In this document: positions 25,772-63,117 of the stretch, one piece after another
Numbering within the stretch: the stretch's first letter is position 1
How the letters are laid out: every line of letters begins with the position of its first letter
Assembly: GCA_020848545.1 (NCBI GenBank)
Contig: JADLHZ010000098.1
Coordinates: forward strand, 1 to 64,000
Direction: 5' to 3'
Length of the DNA stretch: 64,000 nucleotides
DNA from: Deltaproteobacteria bacterium
GTDB lineage: Bacteria > Myxococcota > JADLHZ01
Notes under the pieces: generated by a model
The model's input: only the letters and a program-made list of their open reading frames with translations
Told to the model about the DNA's origin: nothing
The model's database searches: none
Made by a program: the position numbers and the translations under genes

Positions 25772-25965
25772 AGCGCTTCGCTTTCTCCTATCCCTCTACA
25801 CTCGCCGTTTCAGCCGAGCGCTTCTTGGGTCGTCCGAGCGCGCGGCAGCCGTTGTCCGCGATAACGATGTCACTCACAAATCAAGAAAAAAAACGGGATC
25901 CGAACCGAGTTCAATGGCGCAGAGCACACCGCTAGGTCATCCTTCATATGGCCAGGAGGTGCGCT

Positions 25966-34043
<8,078 letters not shown>

Positions 34044-34044
<1 letters not shown>

Positions 34045-48445: not shown

Positions 48446-48874
48446 CCTAGTGGAAAGAATTAACGCGTTTTTCCCCCTCCGGCCACCAGAAAGGGGGAGC
48501 TTCCGTATTGTCCGTGCATGTCGGATAACGCCCTGCACCACCCATGGCCGATTGACACATCGCGTCTAGATGGCAGCAGGCCCCGAAGCACTGCCGCTTA
48601 CATACAAAATAATGATGAATGGCAGGCCGACTCTCAGAACGGCGCGATAATGTACGCAGCTAGCCCCCATGTAGGGAAAGGGCGTTCATTCGTGAAAGCT
48701 GAGTTGCCACAGGCCTCTGGGCAAAATCTTGTTGACAGCCTTATGACGCGGTGCTACGCCGCGCGGCTCTGTATGTGTGGGGTCTTGTCGGACGATCGGC
48801 CAGTTTATCTGACTTCGTCTGACAGGGCAAAAAAATCGTTGGTTCGCGGAGACGCGCTCCAACAGCGAGGCAAC
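48446..48874. other. Gene-free 429-base region upstream of the beta-barrel gene
   Basis: No gene was found. Reading frames through it have no codon bias and no homology that I recognise. It is visibly richer in A and T than the rest of the window. TTGACA occurs at 48552 and 48732, each without a convincing -10, and a CCCCCT/AGGGGG inverted repeat lies at 48474-48498. It may hold the promoter and a long leader of the following gene, or regulatory RNA. Confidence 0.5.
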
Positions 48875-50494
48875 ATGCGTCGTTCCGTTGGCCACTTGTT
48901 TCTCAGCGTTTTCGTCGCGACGGCTCTCACACTCAGCGCTTCCCATGCGCGCGCCTCCGATGACGACGAGCTCGAGAAGATTCTCCAACAAGGGTTGAAG
49001 GAGATCGATTCCCAAAAACCGGCGGAGAAGAAGGCCGAGCCGAAGAAAGACAAGAAGGCCGAGGCCAAGAAAGAAGAGCCGAAGAAGGAAGAGGCTCCCG
49101 CTCCGGTCAAGAAGGAAGAGCCGAAGAAGGAAGCGGTCAAGAAGGACGCTCAGAAGGCGCAAGACGACCTGAAGAAGGCCGAAGCCGCCAAAAAAGAAGA
49201 AGCGAAGAAAGACGAACCGCGCCGCGCGCCGATCGGAGCCGCGAAAGAGGCCGCCAAAGATCCGGCGCCCGCGCCCGTCGAGCCGCTCGAAGAGCCGAAG
49301 CCCGCGCCGGCGCCCGTCGCCAAGCCGACGAAGCCGGTGGTGCCGGTCGCTGCGCCCGCGCCGGTCAAGCAAGAGCCCGTCAAAGAAGTGACCGCGGCGC
49401 CGTCGAAGCCGCTCGAAGTCGGTCCGGATCCGAAAGCCGCGGCCAAGCCGGCGGCTGCGGCGACCGCGAGCAAAGACGGCAAGGATGAGCCGAAGGCCAA
49501 GCGCACCGTGTCGATGGCCGTCAACGCTGATCAAGCGGCGCTCTCGGGCGCGTCGGCCAAGGCATGGTCGGTCAACCTGTCGCTGAACACGAGCGTCGGC
49601 TCGGGCGCGATGCTCACGCCGGGCTCGAGCGCCTACGCGTATAACCCGGAAGTCACGCAGTCGTTGACGATCAACCCGGGCTACACCTTCTCGCTGACCA
49701 AAGAGCTGAAGCTGCGTGTGACTTTGCGCGAGTCGTTCTCGTGGGAGTTCACCAAGCCGGACAACGCGCAGTACTTCACCTGGTCGGATCTGACCGTTGG
49801 CGCGTCGTCGCGGCTCTACCAGATCCCGGTGATCGGCGTGGACATCTTCGCCTCGCTCAACATGGTCGCGCCGATCTCGCGCGAGAGCCGCTTCGCCACC
49901 TTGGCGACGTCACTCTCGTCGGGCCTCGGCCTCGCCAAGAACTGGGACATCCCGGTGAAGGGCGACTGGCACATGGGCATCAACCTGCGCTACGACCTCG
50001 GCTTTCGTAAGAACTTCCACACCTCGGTCATGCCGCTCATCACCTCGGATGCGCGCGAAGATGGTCTGCCACTCGCGATCCGCGCGTCGACCGATCCGTA
50101 CATTCCGGGCTCGCTCACCCGTGGTGGTGGCATCAACGTCAGCCACACGCTGTCGAACGCGCTGACGCTCTCGTGGTCGATCCACGACATGGTCAGCCTC
50201 TCGTTCTTCGCCTCGGTCACGAACGGCTGGAAGTACGCCGGCCAAGGTCAGCTGGTGCAAGACGAGTTCACCTCGTCCTATGCGCGCCTCGGCCCCGGCC
50301 GCACGGAGAGCATGCGCACGAACATCGACCTCACCATTCAACCGTGGTCGTGGCTGTCGTTCTCGGTCGGCATCTTCACGGCGCAGCCGATCTTCGCGCC
50401 GGACAACAAGACCTTCAACAACCCGATTTGGAACAGCCAATCGGCGGCCAACAATTATTCGTCCATCTACTTGTCGCTCGGCGGTCAGATTTAA
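48875..50494 (+). CDS. Outer-membrane beta-barrel protein with a Lys/Pro/Ala-rich linker
   Basis: 539 residues: a signal peptide (to about ASHARA), a short Glu/Asp helix (DDDELEKILQQGLKEIDSQ), about 150 residues of Lys/Glu/Pro/Ala-rich low-complexity linker, and a C-terminal half of alternating aromatic strands with the WSWLSFSVGIFTA pattern of a beta-barrel. The linker may span the periplasm or bind peptidoglycan. The family is not recognised. A weak GAGG site precedes the ATG. The gene lies 75 bases before the giant metalloprotease and probably forms an operon with it. Confidence 0.8.
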   Translation: MRRSVGHLFLSVFVATALTLSASHARASDDDELEKILQQGLKEIDSQKPAEKKAEPKKDKKAEAKKEEPKKEEAPAPVKKEEPKKEAVKKDAQKAQDDLKKAEAAKKEEAKKDEPRRAPIGAAKEAAKDPAPAPVEPLEEPKPAPAPVAKPTKPVVPVAAPAPVKQEPVKEVTAAPSKPLEVGPDPKAAAKPAAAATASKDGKDEPKAKRTVSMAVNADQAALSGASAKAWSVNLSLNTSVGSGAMLTPGSSAYAYNPEVTQSLTINPGYTFSLTKELKLRVTLRESFSWEFTKPDNAQYFTWSDLTVGASSRLYQIPVIGVDIFASLNMVAPISRESRFATLATSLSSGLGLAKNWDIPVKGDWHMGINLRYDLGFRKNFHTSVMPLITSDAREDGLPLAIRASTDPYIPGSLTRGGGINVSHTLSNALTLSWSIHDMVSLSFFASVTNGWKYAGQGQLVQDEFTSSYARLGPGRTESMRTNIDLTIQPWSWLSFSVGIFTAQPIFAPDNKTFNNPIWNSQSAANNYSSIYLSLGGQI

Positions 50495-50569: not shown

Positions 50570-53500
50570 ATGAGGCTCTCGGGATTCTTGAAGTCAGGCA
50601 TCGGGGCCGTCATGGCTCTCGCCCTCCTCGCGGGTGGTTGCGCCCAGACGGTCGGCGACATCAACCGCGTCGTTCCGGGCTACGTCAAAAAGTCGGCGTT
50701 CTCGCCCGAGAACAAGTGGTATCTGCAAGAGACGGTCACGCGCGTTGACAACAACGTGTCGGGCTCGATCTTCGACGGCTACGTGCTCAACAACGACAAG
50801 ATTCGTTGGCAGATCGACGGCAACTGGTTGAAGGCGTACCGCACCTACGAGAACATCCCGGGTGAGACCTTCGGCGGCAACAAGGACATGCAGATCGACG
50901 ATCTGTATTATGGCAGCCCGATCGCCATCTACGAGATCTCGAGCCACTTCGACATCCGCCGCGAGTACAACACCTCGACGGGCGAGCAATCGAACGTGAT
51001 CTCCGAGAACACCGATCGCCCGCCGTTCGAGCGCGAGTACATGCGCGTGAACTTCTCGGCGAACCTGGTGCCGTCGTTCTCCTCGACGGACTCGGTCATG
51101 TCGTCGGTCACCTTGACCTCGTCGGCCGTCCAGTTCTTCCCAGACACGGCCGAGCACGCCTCGGACCCGCGCCGCTTCCGCTTGACGGACGATTTGATCC
51201 AGATCCCGACGCGCTGGGTGGTCAGCCCTGACCTCTACTACTGCTACACGATCGGCTTCTTCTACGACTCCGGTAACTGCGCGCCCGGCAGCATCGACGC
51301 GATGGCGTCGTTCGTCCGTATCGATCAGGACAAAGAGTACGACTACGCGCCGGTCTACTATCCGGACACCATCCCGGTGCGTGACAAGGACAACAACCGC
51401 GTCCTCGTCGACCAGTTCGGCAACGCCTGCGACAAGACCAGCGGTGGCGTCACCGAGTGCAAAGAGTTCCGCTTGGACCTCTTCCAGCGCTTCGGTTACT
51501 TCCGCACGCAACGCATCGCCATCGACCGTAAGGCCGACTACGTCGAGTCGGGCCGCATCCCGCTCGCGAACACGTGGCCCATCTGGCAGCAGTACTACCA
51601 GCGCAAAGACTACGATGAGTCGACCGGTCTCTACTCCGGCGAGTTCATCGTCGACAGCAAGGGCAACCGCGTCGAGATCCCGCTCGAGAAGCGCAAGGTT
51701 CGCACCCACACGTTCTGGACGAACACCGAGTGGCCGGACTACCAGATGGAGATCGCCAAGCGCCTGATGGACGACTGGAACAAGCTGTTCCAAGACTCGA
51801 TCAAGGCGGCGTACGCCGTCGAAGCAGAGCGCTCGGACGGCGACCGCAAAGCGAAGCTCCTGGCCCTGTCGAAGCTGCAAGGCTGCAAGGGCGACGAGAC
51901 GAGCTGCCTCCCGGCCGTGTTCCAATGGCAACGCAACAGCTGTAACTTCGAGAACGTTCCGAAGCTGCTCGAAGGCAAGACCGGCGATCTGCAGGTCGCG
52001 ATCAGCAGCGACAAGGCGATGAAGCTCCGCGACGTCGTCAACGAGTACGTCGGCGCCCAAGGCATCGTCGCCGGCAACCTCGAGAACGTGTGCTCGCTCA
52101 TGGAGTTCTACACGGACAAGAGCCATCCGGAGCGCCTCGCGCAGAAGAACGGCAAGCCCGTCACCGAGCTCTCGGACGACATGGTGTTCACGTGGCAAAT
52201 GGTCGGCGACATGCGCTTCCCGATCATGAACTGGGTCTCGCGCGATCAGCTCTCGGGCCCGCTCGGCTACGGCCCGTCGTTCGCCGATCCCGAGACCGGC
52301 CGCATCGTTCACGCTGGCGCCAACGTCTACGGCCACAGCCTCGAGACCTACGCCTTCACGGCGCAGCAATGGCTCGACGTTTACAACGACCCGAACGCCG
52401 CTGCGAACACCGTCCTCGGCCAAGACATGGCGAAGTACTTCGACGCCATCACCAAGCAATCGAAGGCCCGCCGCGCCGAAGTCGGCCTGCGTCCGGATCA
52501 ACGGGCAGCGCTCAACCAGCGCTTCCAGAAGGTCGCCGTCGGCGATAACCGCCAAGCGATCTTGAAGGATCAAGGCTTCAACAGCGGCGGCGACGCCAAG
52601 CTCGAGGCGATCAAAGGCACGCCGTTCGAGAAGCAATTCCTGATCAACGACGACCTCCTCGACTTCTGGAGCAACGGCCGATACAGCCGTGAAAAGACCC
52701 AGATGTCGACCGAAGAGATCGATCGGCTCTACGCGCAAGCGTCGCCGTCGAACTGGGCGACCAGTAAGTCGCGCAACGGCTTCCTGCAAGCGTTCCGCAC
52801 GTTGGGCACGTCCAAGCACCCGATCACCCACTCGGACAAGGCGCACTGTATCTATCCATCGATCGCGCTCGACGACGTGCTCGTGCCGCAGGCGTTGAAG
52901 TACAAGAACGTCAAGGACCGCGAGAAGGTCTGGCAGAGCATCTCGAAGGACATCAACTGGGCCGTCATGCTCCACGAAGTCGGCCACAACATGGGTCTGC
53001 GCCACAACTACCGTGGCTCGTCAGACGCGCTCAACTACTTCGACGAGTTCTGGAAGCTCAACGAAGAGAACGCCGACAACCCGAAGAAGCTCGAGTACGA
53101 GTACACCTCGATCATGGATTACGGCGCCAACTTCAACACGGACTTCGCCGGCCTCGGCAAGTACGACCGCGCCGCGATCCAGTTCGCGTACACCGGCCTC
53201 ATCCAAGTCTTCGACTTGCCGCAACGCTCGGCCGTGGCCTACCCGCCGCTGCCGGAAGAAGTGGCCTCGCAGAACTGCGAGCCGACCGACCCGGCCAAGT
53301 TCCTCTCGATCGGCCAATGGTGCGGTGAAGCCGCGACCAGCGACACCTTCCCGAGCAAGGACAACGAGGGTGACGGCTGGCTCATGGACTACAAGAAGCT
53401 GCCGACCCTGCTCGGTGGCGTGAAGGCCATCAAGGACGGCCGCAAGTGGATCAAGTTCTCGGACTATGTCGAGAACTGGCGCGCCAAGCTCACCAACGGC

Positions 53501-55276
53501 AACTTGCCGAAGACCCTGCCGGACGTCGATGGCCTCTCGAAGAAGCCGTTCGACATCAAGCTCGGCGGCGACGCCCCGATGTATTCGGTGCCCTACGGCT
53601 TCTGTTCGGACGAGTTCGTCGGCAACGTCTTCGGCGGTGCCTGCAACGTGTTCGACATCGGCGCCAGCGTCGAGGAGCAGATCCAAAACACCGTCGACAT
53701 GTACGAGTTCCGGTACATCTTCGGCGCCTTCAAGCGCGATCGCTTCGGCTGGGATCCGTCGGGCTGGCTCCGCAACCTGCAGGGCCGCTACTTCGCGAAC
53801 TACACGACCGCGTTCCGCTACTTCTACTTCGCGGACCGCTTCTATCCGGACTTCTACAAGTCGATGGACTTCTACAGCGACTTCGCGAAGGCGTCGCTCG
53901 TCGGTCTGAACAGCTTGTCGCAAACGATGACGCGTCCGGAGACCGGCCTCCACTGCTTGTTCCCGTGGGGCCCGAAGGTCGGCAACATGTACGTCCACGC
54001 GTCTGACTACGGCATCACGGACTGCGCGCAGTACCGGGTGCAATCGGTCAACGTTCCCGTCGGCGTCGGACGCCCGGCGTTCCTGAACTACACGCAGGAC
54101 TACTACTACGAGATCTCGTCGATCGGCTCGGTCTACGAGAAGCTCGTCGCCCTGCAAGCGCTCGCCGATACGGAAGGCTCGTTCATCCGCTTCGACAACG
54201 GCGCCAACTATCGCTTCTCGAACATCGGCTACTACCGCTTGTTCCAAGACGACATGCTCAAGTTCATCACCGGCATGCTGTCGAAGGAATACCGGACCAC
54301 GGCCGGCGTCGTCGACAAGAACGGCGAGTACGTGGGCCGTCCGATCGCGATGGAAGGCGCCTCGGTGCAGAACCAAGCGCTGCTCAACGACGCGACGCTC
54401 GATCCGGTCGATCCGCAGCTCTTCGACTTGCACAAGCAGTACGCGTTGCTCTTCGGCATGGCGCTGATGAGCACCACGTCTGACTGGAAGATGGACTTCG
54501 CCAAGTACGCCCGCGTGTCTGTCAAGGGTTCGTCGGACGACTTCCAGTGGGGCAACGTGCCGGATCTCGTCCCGGCGGAAGCTCCGCGCAAGACGACCTG
54601 CGATCCGAACCAACAGTTCCAATGCACGTACCCGGACGTTTGCGCCGAGACGGCGGACGCGGCCGGCAATCCGAGCGGCCAGTTCATCTGCGCCGTGCGG
54701 ACGAAGATCGAGATCCAGAACCCGGTCAGCGGTCAGATCTACCGCGCCGTTGCCAACGCGGACATGGGCGGCACGACCCGGCCGGCGATCTCGCTCGGCT
54801 GGCGCTTGCTCGCCGACGTCGAGGAGTTCCAAGGTCAAGTCGGCTCGCTCACCCGTTACGCGACGGGCGCGGCGCTGCAGATGCCGGACGACTACTACGT
54901 CGCGATCGGCGAGCTCGACAACATCATCCAATCGATGGGCGGCTCGGGCATCCCGCCCGAGTACTTCGAAGAGGACAACATCCCGGCCTTGATCGCGGCG
55001 CTCGATGCCTTGAGCCAAGCGATGAAGGTGCTGCGTGAGGGTGGCGATGTTTCGACGGCGCCGGGCGCGAACGACCTCGCGGCCATGCTGTCGAACCTCA
55101 CCGGTTCGACCATCACGCCCGCGGATCCTGACTACGCATCGTTCGTCGCTTTCTTGGCGCAGCAGATCGAAAGCGATCTGACGCGCATCAACTACGACTA
55201 CGTCGAGTCGCTCGAGTGGGTGGACACCCTCCGCGCGTACTACAACGAGTTCCACTACCAATACGGCTTGCCGTAA
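50570..55276 (+). CDS. Giant lipoprotein zinc metalloprotease (DUF5117/DUF4953-like), paralogue 1
   Basis: 1,568-residue predicted lipoprotein (lipobox LAGGC). A large N-terminal beta-rich region (about 30-400) precedes the protease motif HEVGHNMGLRH (802-812; zinc ligands His802, His806 and His812, catalytic Glu803) and a Met-turn-like SIMDYG (847-852), the metzincin arrangement. The long C-terminus has one Cys-rich patch (CDPNQQFQCTYPDVC). It shares overall design with the gene at 56273. Probably surface-exposed or periplasmic; the substrate is unknown. AAGGAG precedes the ATG. Confidence 0.85.
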   Translation: MRLSGFLKSGIGAVMALALLAGGCAQTVGDINRVVPGYVKKSAFSPENKWYLQETVTRVDNNVSGSIFDGYVLNNDKIRWQIDGNWLKAYRTYENIPGETFGGNKDMQIDDLYYGSPIAIYEISSHFDIRREYNTSTGEQSNVISENTDRPPFEREYMRVNFSANLVPSFSSTDSVMSSVTLTSSAVQFFPDTAEHASDPRRFRLTDDLIQIPTRWVVSPDLYYCYTIGFFYDSGNCAPGSIDAMASFVRIDQDKEYDYAPVYYPDTIPVRDKDNNRVLVDQFGNACDKTSGGVTECKEFRLDLFQRFGYFRTQRIAIDRKADYVESGRIPLANTWPIWQQYYQRKDYDESTGLYSGEFIVDSKGNRVEIPLEKRKVRTHTFWTNTEWPDYQMEIAKRLMDDWNKLFQDSIKAAYAVEAERSDGDRKAKLLALSKLQGCKGDETSCLPAVFQWQRNSCNFENVPKLLEGKTGDLQVAISSDKAMKLRDVVNEYVGAQGIVAGNLENVCSLMEFYTDKSHPERLAQKNGKPVTELSDDMVFTWQMVGDMRFPIMNWVSRDQLSGPLGYGPSFADPETGRIVHAGANVYGHSLETYAFTAQQWLDVYNDPNAAANTVLGQDMAKYFDAITKQSKARRAEVGLRPDQRAALNQRFQKVAVGDNRQAILKDQGFNSGGDAKLEAIKGTPFEKQFLINDDLLDFWSNGRYSREKTQMSTEEIDRLYAQASPSNWATSKSRNGFLQAFRTLGTSKHPITHSDKAHCIYPSIALDDVLVPQALKYKNVKDREKVWQSISKDINWAVMLHEVGHNMGLRHNYRGSSDALNYFDEFWKLNEENADNPKKLEYEYTSIMDYGANFNTDFAGLGKYDRAAIQFAYTGLIQVFDLPQRSAVAYPPLPEEVASQNCEPTDPAKFLSIGQWCGEAATSDTFPSKDNEGDGWLMDYKKLPTLLGGVKAIKDGRKWIKFSDYVENWRAKLTNGNLPKTLPDVDGLSKKPFDIKLGGDAPMYSVPYGFCSDEFVGNVFGGACNVFDIGASVEEQIQNTVDMYEFRYIFGAFKRDRFGWDPSGWLRNLQGRYFANYTTAFRYFYFADRFYPDFYKSMDFYSDFAKASLVGLNSLSQTMTRPETGLHCLFPWGPKVGNMYVHASDYGITDCAQYRVQSVNVPVGVGRPAFLNYTQDYYYEISSIGSVYEKLVALQALADTEGSFIRFDNGANYRFSNIGYYRLFQDDMLKFITGMLSKEYRTTAGVVDKNGEYVGRPIAMEGASVQNQALLNDATLDPVDPQLFDLHKQYALLFGMALMSTTSDWKMDFAKYARVSVKGSSDDFQWGNVPDLVPAEAPRKTTCDPNQQFQCTYPDVCAETADAAGNPSGQFICAVRTKIEIQNPVSGQIYRAVANADMGGTTRPAISLGWRLLADVEEFQGQVGSLTRYATGAALQMPDDYYVAIGELDNIIQSMGGSGIPPEYFEEDNIPALIAALDALSQAMKVLREGGDVSTAPGANDLAAMLSNLTGSTITPADPDYASFVAFLAQQIESDLTRINYDYVESLEWVDTLRAYYNEFHYQYGLP

Positions 55277-55291
55277 GCGTAGCGGGCCTCA

Positions 55292-55419
55292 GCGAGAAAT
55301 CGCGATACGGGCCCGTCTGCTTCGTTGCTTCAGTCCTTGCGGTGCTCGACGTAGCTCCGCTACGCCTCCGCTCCTCAGTCCTTCACGCCTCGCATACGAA
55401 CCCGTCTCGCGATTCTCGC
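55292..55419. repeat. Imperfect inverted repeat between convergent genes
   Basis: Arms 55292-55316 and 55396-55419 are near-perfect complements (GCGAGAAATCGCGA against TCGCGATTCTCGC, then an ACGGG/CCCGT continuation). The interior holds two CAGTCCTT direct repeats and a CGTAGC-tcc-GCTACG hairpin. It lies between the ends of the first metalloprotease gene and the small lipoprotein gene, so it could end or protect both transcripts. Confidence 0.6.
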
Positions 55420-55453
55420 GAGGCGGTGTTCGTGGGCGATGGAACCCGAAAAA

Positions 55454-56017
55454 CTACCGGAACGACTTCGCAGTCACCGGAACGGCGCGTTCCGGATTCG
55501 TCGGCATGTCGGTGAGCACACTGATCGTGCCTGAGACGGTGCTCGTCGTGGCCGGGTAGAACGTGATCTCGATCTCGGTCGACTCACCGGGCCCGAGTGA
55601 ATCCTTCGCGGGCAGCTTGGTGATGTCGAAGAGCGCGGTGCCGGACTCGCTGAGCACGCTGGCGACGCCGTCCTTGATGCTGATGCTGCGCAGGCGCACC
55701 CGCTCGGTGCCTCGGTTGTGGATGATGAGCGTCTCTTTCTTCGGCCCGACCGTGCCCGGCATGGCGAGGATGAACAAGCGCGACGGCTCGAAGGTCATCC
55801 AATATGGCGGGATGAAATGCGGGCTGGTGTCCGGCGCTTCGGTGAGCTCGAGGCCGTCGAGATCGCGAAAGTCCGTGCGCGGCGCGCTCTCGTCGGCGAT
55901 GACGTCGGGTTGGCTCGGCTGCGGGTTCGTCGGTGTGCTGACGACGACGTGGCCATCATCGCCACAGGCAACGAGCAACGACAGGCAAAAACTCGAGACT
56001 GCAAAACACCTGACCAT
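55454..56017 (-). CDS. Small lipoprotein with an ASPM-SPD-2-Hydin-like domain
   Basis: 187-residue predicted lipoprotein (lipobox LLVAC). The C-terminal domain (about 85-185) looks like the ASH/MSP beta-sandwich: ETLIIHNRGTERVRLRSISI followed by LGPGESTEIEITFYPA. Such domains usually mediate protein-protein contact. It is convergent with the first metalloprotease and divergent from the second, suggesting a related envelope role (inference). Confidence 0.8.
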   Translation of the reverse strand: MVRCFAVSSFCLSLLVACGDDGHVVVSTPTNPQPSQPDVIADESAPRTDFRDLDGLELTEAPDTSPHFIPPYWMTFEPSRLFILAMPGTVGPKKETLIIHNRGTERVRLRSISIKDGVASVLSESGTALFDITKLPAKDSLGPGESTEIEITFYPATTSTVSGTISVLTDMPTNPERAVPVTAKSFR

Positions 56018-56237
56018 AGGCAACCTCGTGTCCGTGCATCGGGCTTTACCGACGATTAGGACCTTGGCTTTCCACCCCATCACTTTCGTCGATGGGTCGG
56101 CAATTTTACTGCTGGTCAAAACACATTCTCACTTTAGCGAGGCTACGCTCGCTCGCAACAAAATTGCTGGTGCGAATGCGCCAGAGATCGCTTCCTAGAT
56201 CGAAGGTAGGTCGCTGTACGCGCTGCGGCAATCGTCT

Positions 56238-56266
56238 TTGAGACAGCTCCGCTTTGCTGCTAAATT
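56238..56266 (+). promoter_or_regulatory. Sigma-70-type promoter of the second metalloprotease, leaderless
   Basis: TTGAGA (56238-56243), a 17-base spacer and TAAATT (56261-56266). The ATG begins 7 bases after the -10, at the expected transcription start, and there is no Shine-Dalgarno sequence. Confidence 0.7.
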
Positions 56267-56272
56267 GCGCGG

Positions 56273-59200
56273 ATGGTGAGGCGTCCCCGCTTAGGCGTGC
56301 CGTTGTTGTTCTGCTCGTTGGTGATTGCGGCCGCGGGCTGCGCGCAGCGTGTTCCCGATCTCGATCGCACGCAACCGAACAAGATCCAGAAGACCGTCTT
56401 CGACGGCGAGTGGTACTACCGCCAGACCATCGTCGACGTTCCCTACGACGCTGGCTTCACCTTCGTCGGCGAAACGAGCCGCATGGAGCGCATTCGCTTC
56501 GAAGTGTCGGAGAAGTTCCTCACCGCGTACCGCACCTACGAATACGTGCGCGACGCCGAGCGGCCGTACATGCTGCCGGGGACGAAGTATCAGGGTGCGC
56601 CGATCGCGCAGTTTCGCATTCAAGCGCACTTCGACGTGCAGCGTGGCTACAACGCGGCGACCGGCGAGCAGACGAACGTGCTCGAAGAAAACTCGAGCGA
56701 CCGGCCGTGGAACGAGCGCAAGTTCATGCGCGTCGATTGGTCTGAGAACCTGCTGACCAACTTCGACTTCATGGCCGATGGCATTCGCCAGTCGTCCTCA
56801 CCTTATTATGTGAACGATCCGGTCGACCCTGATCGCTGGTTCCTCGGCACGCGCGATCCGGCGACTGGCGGCTGGAAGGAGGTGCGCGACGAGCGCACGC
56901 TGGCGACCATGACGAGCGCCGATTACTTCGACGTCGTCACGAAGATCTTCGCCACGCCGTCGCTCGTCGACTACTACGGCGACGGCACCTACATGCTGCC
57001 GGCCTGCTGGTTCTTCTCCGCCAGGGACTGCGCGCCGGGCGACGTGAAGGTGCGCCACTCGTTCATGCGCGTGCCGGCGGAGCAGGGCTACGAGCCGCTC
57101 GAGTACCCGGACAACTATCCGAAGCGCGATTCCACGGGCGCGCTCCAAGGCAACACGCAGGGCGAGGTCGTGCGCGTACCAATGTTCGACAAGTTCGGCT
57201 TCTTCCGGGTCGAGCGCGACGCCTACGATCGCGATCGCGGCGTCACCGAGTCCGGGCGCATCTATTTGATCAACCGCTGGAACATCTGGGATCGCACGAC
57301 CTTCAAGGACGGGACGACTGTGCCGTTCAACCAGCGTACGGTGCGGCCGATCGTCTACCACTTGTCGCCGAACTTTCCGGAGACGCTGAAGCCGGCGGCG
57401 CAGGCGCTGGTCGCCGACTGGAACGGGCCGTTGCAAGAGACCGTGGCAAAGCTGCGCGCGCAGCCGTCGACGAGCGACACGGTGTTCGAGCTGCGCGACA
57501 ACACTTACACGGTGGGCGACGACGGCCGCGTCGCCAACTACGGCGAGCGCGTGGGCGACTTGCGCTACTCGATGATCTACTGGGTCGACCAGGCGTCGTC
57601 CGCCACGCCGCTCGGGTACGGTCCGAGCTCGAGCGATCCGCTGACCGGTGAGATCATCTCTGCAAACGCGTACATCTACGGCGGCGCCATCGACGCCTAC
57701 GCGCAGCACGGCAAGGACGTGATCGACTTGCTCAACGGCGCCGTCTCGGAGGCGCGCTTGTACTCCGGCGAGCTGTCGGCGGCGGAGATCGCAGCGCGCG
57801 TGCAGAACCGCGGCTACGACGCCCGCATCAGCTCGCCCGAGGGCCTGCACGACAAGCTGTCGCGCAGCGGCCTGCACGCGCGCATCCAAGCGCTGCACAC
57901 GAAGGGCAAGGACGCGATCTTGAAGGACCCGGCGCAGATCCTGGGCCGCGCGCGCGCGATCGACACGCGGCCGGATCTGCTCGCGAAGATGCTCGACAGC
58001 GAGATCCTGTTCGCGTTGCGCGAGGACAACAAGAACACCTCGCCGCCGACGGCCGAGGAGCTGAAGAAGCTCTCGCCGGCCTCGTGGTTGAGCCGCGCCG
58101 CGCTCGACAGGGAGCAAAAGCGCCTCGACAGGTTGAGCCGCAACTGCGTCTATCTCGCCGAGTTCGCCGACGACGCGGTGCTCGGTCTCGCGCGCGAGCT
58201 GAAGGCGAAGAAACAGGCGGATCCCAGCTTCGACGTCAAAGGCTGGATCCGCGCGGCGATCTTCCAGTCGGTGACGGCGCACGAGGTCGGCCACACGCTC
58301 GGCCTGCGCCACAACTTCGAGGGCTCGTACGACGCGCTGAACTTTCCGCGGCGCTACTGGGAGCTGAAGGGCGACAACGCGACGCCGCTCTCCACCGCGC
58401 AGACGCAGGCGCAGATCGACGGCAAGATGCGCGAGTTTCAGACCTCGTCGATCATGGACTACGGTGCGCGCGCCAACAGCGACATCCACGGCATCGGCCG
58501 CTACGACAAGGCGGCGATCCGCTTCGGCTATGGCCAGCTCGTCGAGGTGCTGAAGCAGCCGATCTTCATCAACGACTACAACCAGCGGTTGCCGCTGATG
58601 CCGGGCGGCCTCGACGCGAACTTCATGCGCCGCTACATCAACCACACCGAGATCCCCAAATTCTTCGGCGGGATCGACAAGATCGATCAGCGCGCGATCG
58701 TGCCCTACGACAAGATCATCCAGCAGCAGCTCGAAGGCGGCGATCTCGTCGAGGTGCCCTACATGTTCTGCTCGGACGAGTACGCGGGCGGCACCCCGAC
58801 TTGCGATCGCTGGGACCAGGGCGCCGATCCGCATGAAATCGCCGTCAACGCGGCCGACTCGTACGAGCGCTACTACTTCTTCAACAGCTTCAAGCGCGAT
58901 CGCCGCTACTTCTCGCCGCGCACGTACATGGGCCGCATCTACTCGCGCTACTTGCGGCCGATGCAGTCGATGTACCAGCACTGGGTCTTCCGCCAGTTCA
59001 ACGACAGCGATCTGTGGGAAGATCTCGGCCAGATTCAGCAGTGCTACAACGCGAACCCGACGAACCCCGAGGTGGCGTGCTCGGACGTGCGCTCGCCGAA
59101 CTTCTGGTCAGGGTTGAAGCAGGTGCTCGGGTTGACGCCGGCAAAGCAGCTGAAGCTCGTGCACAACGGCGATTGGAACTTGGATCCGAACGGCGGCGGG

Positions 59201-60346
59201 GCGTTTGCGGCGGCGACGCTCGAGGGCATGAACGCGATGTTCCGGATCCTGCAGACGCCCGAGCCCGGCAGCTTCGTCGATCTCAACGACTTCAAGGCGA
59301 ACCCGCCGCCGCCGTCGCCGGATCCGTTCTCGAACGACTATCGCGCCGAGAATAAGGTGACGATCGCCTCGAGTGATCCGAAGGCGTTCAAGGCCTGCAC
59401 GACGAACCCGAGCATTCGCGCGACCGACGGGCGCCTCATGTGCAGCAAGCTCAGCCTCGATCTCGGCACTGCGCGTTTTCCGTATACGAACTATCAGACC
59501 GAGACCGGCTACTACTACTTCGACCGCATTGCGTGGATCGGCAGCTTCTACGACAAGATCGTCGCCATTTTGGCGCTGACCGATCCGTCGACGAGCTTCA
59601 TCGGCGTCGACACGGCGAGCGACATTCGCCGCTTCGCGATCGGCTACAACCTGTTGTTCCCCGATCTCATGCACCACTTCTTCTCGTCGCTCTTCGCGGA
59701 GCAGCTCGGCGAGTACGCGCCGCGGGTGAAGGACGGACAGCTCTTTGAACGGCCGCCGTTCGCGTCGGCGATCGGCACGTCGCCGGAGGACTTCATCACG
59801 CTGCCGCCCGCGTGCGAGAACAGCATGAGCTGCGGGACGCCGCTCGACGTATCGAACAACTTCACCGTGCGCATCTACGCGCTCTTCTACGGCATGGCGT
59901 ACTTCACCTCGGTGTTCAGCCCGGCGTTCACCGACGCGGCGCAAATCTGCGTGCGCGGCAACGGCGAGTGCTCGATCCCGCAGGGGCAAGCGTGCGACGA
60001 CGCCAACACCCCGAGCGCCACCGCGAACCCGTGCTGGGAGTTCCAGAGCCCGACGAACAACAAAACCTACGTCGCGTGGAAGAACGACACGAGCTCGGGG
60101 CCGGCGCCCGCGCTCGGCTTCGAAGGGGTAGCGCCGCAGCTCCTCAAGCGGACCGCCGCGCTGAAGGAGGCGTACGTCAACGCGAAGGCCGACTACAACG
60201 CGCTCTACAACATGCCGAGCACGACCGCGGATCAGAAGCAAAAGCTCGAGGATCGCCTGCGGTATACGACAAGCTCGCTCACCAACGCGGTCGAGGACGT
60301 CGAGCTCGTGCGCGGCTTCTACGCGCTCTTCGGCTACATCCGCTGA
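56273..60346 (+). CDS. Giant lipoprotein zinc metalloprotease (DUF5117/DUF4953-like), paralogue 2
   Basis: 1,357-residue predicted lipoprotein (lipobox AAAGC). It has HEVGHTLGLRH (670-680; His670, His674, His680, Glu671) and SIMDYG (726-731) in the same order as its paralogue at 50570. Shared segments include the AYRTYE stretch and the GYNAATGEQTNVLEEN/NTSTGEQSNVISEN pair, so the two are duplicates. A coiled-coil-like end (LKRTAALKEAYVNAKADYN) is unique to this copy. The last codon overlaps the plsB start (TGATG). Substrate unknown. Confidence 0.85.
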   Translation: MVRRPRLGVPLLFCSLVIAAAGCAQRVPDLDRTQPNKIQKTVFDGEWYYRQTIVDVPYDAGFTFVGETSRMERIRFEVSEKFLTAYRTYEYVRDAERPYMLPGTKYQGAPIAQFRIQAHFDVQRGYNAATGEQTNVLEENSSDRPWNERKFMRVDWSENLLTNFDFMADGIRQSSSPYYVNDPVDPDRWFLGTRDPATGGWKEVRDERTLATMTSADYFDVVTKIFATPSLVDYYGDGTYMLPACWFFSARDCAPGDVKVRHSFMRVPAEQGYEPLEYPDNYPKRDSTGALQGNTQGEVVRVPMFDKFGFFRVERDAYDRDRGVTESGRIYLINRWNIWDRTTFKDGTTVPFNQRTVRPIVYHLSPNFPETLKPAAQALVADWNGPLQETVAKLRAQPSTSDTVFELRDNTYTVGDDGRVANYGERVGDLRYSMIYWVDQASSATPLGYGPSSSDPLTGEIISANAYIYGGAIDAYAQHGKDVIDLLNGAVSEARLYSGELSAAEIAARVQNRGYDARISSPEGLHDKLSRSGLHARIQALHTKGKDAILKDPAQILGRARAIDTRPDLLAKMLDSEILFALREDNKNTSPPTAEELKKLSPASWLSRAALDREQKRLDRLSRNCVYLAEFADDAVLGLARELKAKKQADPSFDVKGWIRAAIFQSVTAHEVGHTLGLRHNFEGSYDALNFPRRYWELKGDNATPLSTAQTQAQIDGKMREFQTSSIMDYGARANSDIHGIGRYDKAAIRFGYGQLVEVLKQPIFINDYNQRLPLMPGGLDANFMRRYINHTEIPKFFGGIDKIDQRAIVPYDKIIQQQLEGGDLVEVPYMFCSDEYAGGTPTCDRWDQGADPHEIAVNAADSYERYYFFNSFKRDRRYFSPRTYMGRIYSRYLRPMQSMYQHWVFRQFNDSDLWEDLGQIQQCYNANPTNPEVACSDVRSPNFWSGLKQVLGLTPAKQLKLVHNGDWNLDPNGGGAFAAATLEGMNAMFRILQTPEPGSFVDLNDFKANPPPPSPDPFSNDYRAENKVTIASSDPKAFKACTTNPSIRATDGRLMCSKLSLDLGTARFPYTNYQTETGYYYFDRIAWIGSFYDKIVAILALTDPSTSFIGVDTASDIRRFAIGYNLLFPDLMHHFFSSLFAEQLGEYAPRVKDGQLFERPPFASAIGTSPEDFITLPPACENSMSCGTPLDVSNNFTVRIYALFYGMAYFTSVFSPAFTDAAQICVRGNGECSIPQGQACDDANTPSATANPCWEFQSPTNNKTYVAWKNDTSSGPAPALGFEGVAPQLLKRTAALKEAYVNAKADYNALYNMPSTTADQKQKLEDRLRYTTSSLTNAVEDVELVRGFYALFGYIR

Positions 60347-63117
60347 TGTCCATTCTTCCGTCTACGCTGCGGGTCGACGTCGCGCCGGCGAAGGGGCTGC
60401 TCTGCCGCTTCTTCGACTGGGCGTTCTTGCCGGTGCAGTTTTCGCCGGAGGCAAAAGCACGGCTCGAGCACGTGGCGGCGAAGGGACGCGTGGTCTACGT
60501 CTTGCGGTCGAGCAGCTTTCTGTCGGCGCTCTTGCTGGCGACGCTCGTGCGGACGAGTGGGCTGCCCGTGATCCGCTATGTGTCGCACCTGACCGTCGTC
60601 TGGTGGCAGTCGCTCGGCTTCCTCTTGCGGGCCTTGTTCGCGCGCGATCGCTCGCAGCCCTCGATCGCCACGCTCATCCTGCGCCGGCGCGAAGCCGAGG
60701 AGCAGCGTTGGCTCGGGGACGCGTTGAAGGAAGGGCACTCGGCGTTGCTGTTCCTGTTTCGCCCGCGCAGCAGCACGACCGGGCGCATCAAGGCCGGCGA
60801 GCAAGCGTTGCTCCGCTTGTTGCGTGCGTCGCGAGAGGCCGGCGTTCCGGTGCAAATCGTCGCTGTTTCCTTCTTCTACGATCAGGCGCGCGAGCACCTG
60901 CGCCGGTCGCTCGTCGACTTCATGTTCGGGCCGCGCTCGGGGCCGGGGCGCCTGCGCGAGCTCGGCAGCTTCTTGCTCCACCGCTACGAGACGATCGTCA
61001 GCGTCGGCGAGCCGATCGCGATCGCCGCCTTGGACGAAGCGTGCGCGTCGGAAGACGTGCGCACCGTCGACGCGATGCGTACGGAGCTTCTGAAGAGCCT
61101 GCAGCAGCACGCGCGCATCGTCCGCGGTCCACGCTTGCGCCCGCGCGGTCACGTGCTCGCGAGCGTGCTGCGCGATCCGGATCTGCAGGCGGAGATGGCC
61201 GAGGAGACGAAGAAGACCGGCAAGCCGCTCGCCGAGCTCAGGGCGACGGCGTACCGCTACGTCAACGAGATCGCCGCCGACTACCGCGAGCACTACATCC
61301 GCGTGTTTCGCCACCTGCTCGACTGGGTGTTCAATCGCATCTACGACGGCGTCGTCGTCGATGAGACCGGCTTCGATCGCCTGCGTGAAGCCGTGAAGGA
61401 CACGACTGTCGTCATCACGCCGTGCCACAAGAGCCACTCGGACTATTTGATCTTGTCGTACGTGTTTCGCGTGCGCGGCCTGCAGTGCCCGCACATCGTC
61501 GCCGGCATCAACCTCTCGTTTTGGCCGCTCGGGCGCATGTTCCGCGGCGCCGGCGCGTTCTTCGTGCGCCGCACCTTCAAGGGCAACGCGCTCTACGGCG
61601 CCACGTTCAAGGCGTACGTGAAGCGCTTGCTGCACGACGGAACGACGATGGAGTTCTTCCCCGAGGGCGGCCGCAGTCGCACGGGCCGCCTGTTGCTGCC
61701 GAAGATCGGCATGTTCAAGTACGTCGTCGAAGCCTGGCGCAGCCCGGGCGCGCCGGAGATCACCTTCGTGCCGGTGTCGATCGACTACGAAAAGATCATC
61801 GAGCACGCGTCGTATCAGGCGGAGCTGCAGGGTAAGGAGAAGAAGCGCGAGGACTTCTCGGCGCTCCTGCGGACACGCAAGATCCTGCGCTCCCGCTACG
61901 GGCGCGTGCACGTGAGCTTCGGCGCGCCCATCAAGCTGAGCCAGTTCGCGGCCCGGCGCGGCGTCGACTTGCCGGATCGCGAGGCGACTAAAAGCGGTCG
62001 ACCGAAGTGCAGCGACGAAGAGAGCACGATGCTCGCGCGCGCGCTGAGCTACCAAGTGATGCACGACATCGGCCGCGTGGCGACGGTGACGCCGTCGGCG
62101 GTGACGGCAGCGGTGCTCTTGAACCCGCGGCGCGGCTCGGTGTCGCGGCAGCAGCTTTTCGAGCAATCGGCGCGCCTGCTCGCCGAGCTCAAGTGGCTCT
62201 CGGCGCCGATCTCGCGCGCGCTGCACCCGGCCGAGCCTGCGCTCGACGAGGCCTTGAAGCGCTTCGAGGACGAGAAGCGTATCCGCATCGAGCACAAGAC
62301 GCCGAACGAGACGATGAGCGGTGGCTACGACGCCTTGCTCAGCGTGCCGAGCGAGAACCGCCTCGGCCTCGTCTACTACCAGAACCAGATCACGCAGCAC
62401 GTGCTCTCGCATGCGATCGTCGCGGTGGCGGCCCTCGCGCTCGGCTCGTGCAAGGTCGAGGAGCTGCGCGTCGCGTCGCTCGAGCTCTCGCGCATGATGA
62501 AGCACGAGTTCAGCTTCCGCGCCGATCGGCCCTTCGAGTCGTTGTTCGCTTTGATCGTGACCGAGCTCGTGGCGCAGGGGCTACTCGTGCTCGAAGCGCC
62601 GCCGAGCGCTCGCGCAGAGGCCGACCCTCAGGGTCGCGCGAACAACGACGCGCTGCAGGACACGATCTTGCTCGGCCGCATCGCGGGCTTGGAAGCGCTC
62701 GCCGGCTTCTTGGACGCGACGATCGGCGCCTATGTGGCCACGCTCGATGCCCTCGACGAGCTCACCCAGTTTCCGCTGTGGGAAAAAGAGCTCGCGATCC
62801 GCGCCGTCGACCGCGTGCGGGCGTGGCTGCTCGACGGCCGCATCAAGACTTCGGAGAGCTTGCAGAAGCCGCTCGTGCAGAGCGCGCTCGCCTGGTTGCG
62901 TGATCTCGGCGTGGTTGCGGAGCGGCCGGACAAGACCTTGGCGTTGACCGAGAAGTTCAATGATCCCGAGAACTTGCGCCTGGTGAGGGAGCACTTCGGG
63001 CGCTTCTTGTTCTCCTACGGAAATGCCGAGCGCACCTCAGGGACACCCCCGCCGATAATGGCTGGGGATTCGTCTGTCACAGGAGCGGCACATGGGCATC
63101 GGGAACATCGCCTCTAG
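60346..63117 (+). CDS. plsB: Glycerol-3-phosphate 1-O-acyltransferase (PlsB-like)
   Basis: 923 residues. The acyltransferase core has the catalytic HX4D motif H361-KSHS-D366, the GP-binding FFPEGGRSRTG (FPEG at 438-441) and a FVPVSIDYEKI block. It transfers an acyl chain to sn-1 of glycerol-3-phosphate at the inner membrane, the first step of phospholipid synthesis. It is somewhat longer than E. coli PlsB (807 residues). Translational coupling (TGATG) to the metalloprotease upstream is odd. AGGAG of the next gene lies inside its last codons. Confidence 0.92.
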   Translation: MSILPSTLRVDVAPAKGLLCRFFDWAFLPVQFSPEAKARLEHVAAKGRVVYVLRSSSFLSALLLATLVRTSGLPVIRYVSHLTVVWWQSLGFLLRALFARDRSQPSIATLILRRREAEEQRWLGDALKEGHSALLFLFRPRSSTTGRIKAGEQALLRLLRASREAGVPVQIVAVSFFYDQAREHLRRSLVDFMFGPRSGPGRLRELGSFLLHRYETIVSVGEPIAIAALDEACASEDVRTVDAMRTELLKSLQQHARIVRGPRLRPRGHVLASVLRDPDLQAEMAEETKKTGKPLAELRATAYRYVNEIAADYREHYIRVFRHLLDWVFNRIYDGVVVDETGFDRLREAVKDTTVVITPCHKSHSDYLILSYVFRVRGLQCPHIVAGINLSFWPLGRMFRGAGAFFVRRTFKGNALYGATFKAYVKRLLHDGTTMEFFPEGGRSRTGRLLLPKIGMFKYVVEAWRSPGAPEITFVPVSIDYEKIIEHASYQAELQGKEKKREDFSALLRTRKILRSRYGRVHVSFGAPIKLSQFAARRGVDLPDREATKSGRPKCSDEESTMLARALSYQVMHDIGRVATVTPSAVTAAVLLNPRRGSVSRQQLFEQSARLLAELKWLSAPISRALHPAEPALDEALKRFEDEKRIRIEHKTPNETMSGGYDALLSVPSENRLGLVYYQNQITQHVLSHAIVAVAALALGSCKVEELRVASLELSRMMKHEFSFRADRPFESLFALIVTELVAQGLLVLEAPPSARAEADPQGRANNDALQDTILLGRIAGLEALAGFLDATIGAYVATLDALDELTQFPLWEKELAIRAVDRVRAWLLDGRIKTSESLQKPLVQSALAWLRDLGVVAERPDKTLALTEKFNDPENLRLVREHFGRFLFSYGNAERTSGTPPPIMAGDSSVTGAAHGHREHRL

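Follow-up and report, generated by a model that had tools for sequence, protein, structure and literature searches.

Two very large genes for predicted lipid-anchored metalloproteases lie close together on contig JADLHZ010000098.1 of a Deltaproteobacteria bacterium (assembly GCA_020848545.1), the first of them directly behind a gene for a putative outer-membrane beta-barrel, and the locus raises the question of whether these neighbors belong together and, if so, what they might do. We refer to the 64,000-nucleotide stretch analyzed here as the window, to the two proteases as A and B, and to the product of the gene preceding A as the barrel. Comparison with other genomes indicated that a barrel gene together with giant proteases makes up a conserved gene unit across many genomes of one phylum, to which myxobacteria-like organisms belong, a conclusion that we consider well supported.

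The first line of evidence is gene order. The family of A is present in 36 of 58 genomes chosen as relatives, and 42 loci (the window counted) contain 64 family frames, the complete ones comprising 1,185–1,682 codons; loci were chosen for a matching protease or barrel. A barrel profile built from 24 upstream genes found one match each in 29 of the 42 loci, the window included, and every one of these matches adjoins the protease gene or genes; five of the 29 loci lie outside the profile. (The 350-bit score of the window barrel is circular, as this protein is itself one of the 24 rows of the model.) Specifically, in 26 of the 29 loci the barrel gene immediately precedes the protease gene on the same strand, at distances of −151 to 67 bp; in two it immediately follows, again on the same strand, and in one it is divergent. 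In the window, A starts 75 bp past the barrel stop codon and is preceded by a Shine-Dalgarno-like GAAGGAG. At loci with two proteases in tandem, a first (P1) and a second (P2), the barrel is directly upstream in 16 of 19 cases, directly downstream in one and not adjacent in two (G002 and G018), whose genomes carry an unlinked barrel instead. Among 25 further loci that hold a barrel, a protease is found in 17.

The second line of evidence is shared presence. Searches of 174 genomes of the phylum, in which no more than 10 barrel and 3 protease candidates were scored for each genome, making an absence weaker evidence than a presence, found the barrel in 63 genomes and the protease in 67. All 63 genomes with a barrel are among the 67 with a protease, and none of the 107 genomes without a protease match has a barrel (Fisher p of about 4e-43, a value inflated by kinship among the genomes). 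At least 75 of the 111 barrel matches have a listed protease match no more than 3 kb away, and 70 of them are upstream of it on the same strand.

Both proteases of the window carry a lipobox, a zinc-binding HExxHxxGxxH motif (as HEVGHxxGLRH) and a SIMDYG Met-turn, and lipid anchoring of both is a prediction. The initial annotation had described two lipobox metzincin-like proteins of 1,568 and 1,357 residues that share N-terminal blocks. The frames, lengths and motifs were found as described, and the catalytic residue of A is indeed Glu803, since numbering from the ATG at 50570 makes the first His residue 802. The likeness between A and B extends further than had been claimed: blastp aligns them over the catalytic and C-terminal part (5e-60) as well as the N-terminal part (1e-47), both far above chance, so that the two are paralogues over nearly their full length. 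As for their family, the suggested affiliation with DUF4953 is supported and that with DUF5117 is not. PF16313 (DUF4953, annotated as a Met-zincin) scores 26.5 bits with A and 48.5 bits with B, above its gathering cut-off of 24.2, and matches all 33 family members at E ≤ 0.01, whereas DUF5117 does not appear in the Pfam results for either A or B up to E = 1 and is absent from the 10 families listed when the 33 members were searched at E ≤ 0.01. Peptidase M66 fell below its cut-off of 20.6 (13.1 bits for A, not listed for B), with 2 of the 33 relatives matching at E ≤ 0.01. A search of PDB sequences with A returned nothing up to E = 5, and one with the protease family profile returned marginal matches to metzincins (best E 0.016).

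Anticipated conservation of the HExxH glutamate was borne out among homologues. In the alignment of the 33 members the lipobox cysteine, all of the zinc ligands, the catalytic Glu, and the Met and Tyr of the Met-turn are invariant, and the catalytic Glu and Met-turn Met are retained in all 83 sequences that cover the motif. The pattern HExxHxx[G/N]xxH fits 82 of the 83, and the remaining one has Ser at the G/N position. Given this retention of Glu and Met, members at both positions of a pair are predicted to be active enzymes.

The pairing itself is also conserved, as had been proposed, with two family frames in 22 of the 42 loci, and P1 and P2 are separate, old clades. A tree built from 63 proteases places 19 of the 21 first-position copies in one clade (Shimodaira-Hasegawa-like approximate likelihood ratio test support 100), 20 of the 22 second-position copies in another (99), and 19 of the 20 solo copies together in a further group (93). 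A tree of 84 proteases reproduced the first two clades, to which the window pair and locus L059 are the exceptions. The window therefore does not hold the standard pair that the initial annotation implied. Sisterhood of A and B, as expected of a recent tandem duplicate, was ruled out by the approximately unbiased test (p = 4.6e-9), as was placement of B inside the P2 clade (p = 1.2e-5); B groups with the clade that is usually solo, and A joins neither tandem clade firmly, with P1 and P2 equally possible for it (p = 0.58 each). These placements make the window arrangement an unusual one, consisting of a barrel-A unit and a solo-type neighbor. Neither A nor the family profile, used as query, retrieved a further giant protease from the window's genome, which does contain elsewhere a shorter open frame of 761 codons with DUF4953.

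The numbers of barrels and proteases also go together. In a table of 32 genomes, compiled by hand from the barrel and protease searches, there are 62 protease units and 51 barrels (Spearman 0.83), the two counts being equal in 23 genomes and the barrels never exceeding the units. A protease unit lacking a barrel occurs in all seven genomes of the table that have an unlinked one, as compared with 8 of the 25 others (p = 0.002). Unlinked barrels mostly fit the barrel-less proteases by descent as well. Those of G039, G043 and G054 form one clade (support 99), which joins the unlinked barrel of G052 and the linked barrel of G022:C20 (93), and the unlinked barrel of G056, where the contigs of barrel and protease are short, most resembles this group; correspondingly, in the protease tree the barrel-less members from these five genomes cluster with the protease of G022:C20 (100). 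A second, unlinked barrel is also encoded in the window's genome (L085:8386-9582, G000:C67). It is 44% identical to the window barrel, and there is no family protease on the 20-kb stretch around it.

That the protein before A is barrel-like has support that is good but not final. The barrel-like gene noted by the initial annotation is present directly ahead of A, and "barrel" is a prediction from sequence. The window protein is laid out as a linker rich in Lys, Glu, Ala and Pro, a barrel-like domain of about 340 residues and an amphipathic C-terminal stretch, and linker-type N-terminal tails of variable length and low complexity are found on many of its relatives. Column hydropathy in an alignment of 25 barrels alternates with period 2 through lag 6 (−0.20, 0.20, −0.12, 0.20, −0.10 and 0.16 at lags 1–6, with a standard deviation of about 0.06 after shuffling), and the last residue is hydrophobic or aromatic in 24 of the 25. 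Matches to known families are few: the outer-membrane barrel model TIGR04565 (OMP_myx_plus) was matched by one of the 25 (3e-4), a LysM domain was found in one (E 3.9e-10), and the window barrel has no Pfam match up to E = 1. Judged from a LysM-like stretch in its letters, the likely owner of the LysM domain is the barrel at L037:256-1842; the match hints that the tail of a barrel can reach the cell wall. Against the PDB, most matches of the barrel profile sit on the low-complexity linker. One of its matches, a weak one (E 0.0038), is to the solved structure 10aw_A, a "50 kDa outer membrane protein", with the alignment running from the signal across the linker to the first strands, and a sequence search with the barrel domain of the window alone found no match.

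We propose, with a probability of roughly one half, that the barrel and the giant lipoprotein metzincins work together as a dedicated outer-membrane unit: the barrel would anchor the proteases or help in their export, and the proteases would cut envelope or surface proteins. After export and lipidation, the lipoproteins would be taken to the outer membrane. The absence of Asp at position +2 of the lipobox in 32 of the 33 aligned members fits outer-membrane sorting under the rule established for enteric bacteria. The product of the adjacent gene would then serve as a dedicated partner, a barrel whose N-terminal tail would lie in the periplasm and which may hold the proteases in place in a physical complex and most likely helps to display them outside, where their targets would be proteins of the envelope or the extracellular space. 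The widespread form encodes P1 and then P2 along with one barrel, and these probably assemble into a three-part complex. For the window, we propose that the barrel serves A and that B, as a solo-type neighbor, may use the second, unlinked barrel of the genome.

Several observations weigh against this proposal. The barrels of the window and of G000:C67 are sisters (100), which A and B are not, so matching of partners by descent fails in the window's own genome. Nor is clade matching supported by loci L035 and L036, from Myxococcales metagenome-assembled genomes, which have proteases without a recognized barrel next door and barrels elsewhere in their genomes; the two of these barrels that were examined are not nearest to the barrels beside B-like proteases. 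Strand-like alternation within single sequences reaches z ≥ 2 in only 9 of the 25 barrels, and the structures predicted for the barrel, from a single sequence, and for B are unusable (mean predicted local distance difference test scores of 29 and 33, respectively). Four genomes have proteases and no barrel, and related genomes are non-independent samples. There is no recognized barrel next door in 13 of the 42 protease loci, and no protease is seen in 8 of the 25 further barrel loci, some of them near contig ends. These missing partners are also what would be seen if the genes were ordinary neighbors, sharing operons while their proteins act independently and make no functional contact. We think this very improbable, since the barrel was found only in genomes with a protease match and all seven tabulated genomes with an unlinked barrel have barrel-less proteases to go with it.

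Other functional readings accept the linkage and differ in what the barrel is for. One is that the unit feeds the cell, with the proteases digesting protein outside and the barrel acting as a pore for peptide uptake, much like the barrel-plus-lipoprotein uptake systems of Bacteroidota. The linkage of barrel and protease fits this as well, and in Segatella copri the gene for a shorter related metalloprotease stops 83 bp short of one for a SusC/RagA barrel. In SusCD and RagAB, too, a barrel and an outer-membrane lipoprotein are encoded together; in the present case, however, the lipoprotein is a protease, and the TonB-dependent receptor and plug domains typical of those systems have no Pfam match among the 25 barrels at E ≤ 0.1. 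Moreover, apart from the proteases and barrels themselves, no more than two protein groups were shared by at least 4 of the 42 loci (each by exactly 4), one resembling frames antisense to the proteases and the other a cysteine-rich protein of about 208 residues. On balance, a role in feeding appears rather unlikely. We also consider it unlikely that the proteases face the periplasm as a quality-control device, in which lipoproteins on the inner leaflet of the outer membrane would cut misassembled envelope proteins and the barrel would be their dock. The linker-type tails of many barrels and the single LysM domain fit a periplasmic docking end, but a size of about 1,200–1,700 residues and a patchy presence, in 67 of 174 genomes, seem unlike housekeeping. 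Quite improbable, finally, is that the barrel is a mere substrate, matured or trimmed by the proteases. Such a relationship would account for the adjacency of the genes and for their similar copy numbers, and low-complexity linkers of variable length could be cut sites; yet two giant proteases for one small barrel would be hard to explain, and by eye the linker of the 25 aligned barrels has no standout invariant stretch.

A more specific version of the dedicated outer-membrane unit, which we put forward only tentatively, is that the barrel is a translocon or assembly platform of a kind other than Slam for giant lipoprotein metzincins, often for an obligate P1/P2 pair on one barrel. According to one study (PMC5449769), 185 of 353 Slam homologues are encoded beside lipobox genes, and Slam-dependent cargo is predicted to have an 8-stranded barrel domain. 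The resemblance to Slam (DUF560) would lie in an outer-membrane barrel that is encoded next to the lipoprotein or lipoproteins it serves, and the difference in the cargo, which here would be giant proteases; a role of the barrel in export is a proposal. DUF560 and TPR have no Pfam match among the 25 barrels at E ≤ 0.1, and the barrel is therefore not a Slam. To our knowledge, how very large lipoproteins reach the surface in bacteria that lack the known routes is an open question, and a barrel family that travels with giant proteases through one phylum is a clear and testable candidate for such a route.

The giant proteases also differ from other proteins to which they can be aligned. Short DUF4953 proteins, such as the zinc-dependent metalloprotease of S. 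copri (829 residues) and the 761-codon frame of the window's genome, share with the giants the zinc motif and Met-turn region, and the S. copri protein aligns in addition with some of the sequence that precedes the zinc helix. Unlike them, the giants have a conserved N-terminal region, a long C-terminal region, P1/P2 pairs and a different barrel. The position of the S. copri gene (L118:3320-5809) beside a SusC/RagA gene suggests that a barrel-protease pairing may exist in Bacteroidota with another barrel. A 1,372-residue "M66 family metalloprotease" on Vibrio parahaemolyticus plasmid NZ_CP141289.1 has a lipobox-like LAGC at its N-terminus and matches positions 442–1033 of the family model; the first third of the model is barely matched, and no barrel is named among the seven annotated features shown around the gene. 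A lipoprotein elastase of the FP0506 type was considered and rejected; its authors (PMC6414381) say that it is without the metzincin residues and may be a gluzincin. We found no mention in the literature searched of DUF4953, DUF5117 or DUF5118 under their Pfam, DUF or InterPro names, which is not proof of absence given that subscription papers were mostly outside the coverage. Nothing turned up there on Myxococcota in combination with metalloprotease, lipoprotein, operon and outer membrane protein, and titles on myxobacterial or metzincin outer-membrane lipoproteins included none concerning a barrel-protease module. The present comparison gives DUF4953 a first genomic context, one in which paired proteases stay distinct across many families of the phylum.

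Table 1 Genes of the barrel-protease locus and their positions in the window.
Feature	Position	Strand	Remarks
Barrel-like gene	ORF 48518-50494; likely start Met 48875 (48875..50494)	+	Signal-peptide-like N-terminus
Protease A, predicted lipoprotein metzincin, 1,568 aa	50570..55276	+	HEVGHNMGLRH from residue 802; SIMDY at 847
Small gene with lipobox and HYDIN/choice-of-anchor-D-type domain	55454..56119	-	Antisense, between A and B
Protease B, predicted lipoprotein metzincin, 1,357 aa	56273..60346	+	HEVGHTLGLRH from residue 670; SIMDY at 726

The small gene between A and B (Table 1) had been taken for an ASH-domain lipoprotein, possibly part of a conserved barrel-protease-ASH order. A small gene with a lipobox is there, and its product passes the cut-off of the HYDIN model PF22544 (26.5 bits as compared with 25.5), whereas ASH itself (PF15780, 14.5 against 27) and the NCBIfam model choice_anch_D (31.5 against 45) remain below theirs. 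Likewise, of the proposed order the barrel-protease part recurs, as described above, and the ASH-like part does not, as no homologue of the small gene was called in any of the 41 other loci. The gene caller used on these loci was greedy and missed some proteases, which were regained in a separate frame search. On the strength of its absence from those gene calls we rejected the ASH-like lipoprotein as a component of the system; the small gene sits here by position, outside the conserved module.

The stop codon of B and the ATG of the next gene, which encodes a plsB-like acyltransferase (GPAT_C), overlap as TGATG at 60344-60348, which suggests coupled translation. This linkage was seen only in the window, with no GPAT match in the 41 other loci. 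Upstream of B, a promoter-like TTGAGA-17-TAAATT (56238-56273) ends six bases ahead of the ATG, so that a message from it would be nearly leaderless; three such sites were found in the region, against 1.4 (standard deviation 1.2) expected. After A lies an intergenic element of about 120 bp (55297-55417) with copies genome-wide, which looks like a dispersed repeat: 37 matching stretches were listed, including the window's own, several of them 80–88% identical over about 118 bases. Elsewhere in the window, an open frame of 2,698 residues occupies positions 25948-34044 of the plus strand.

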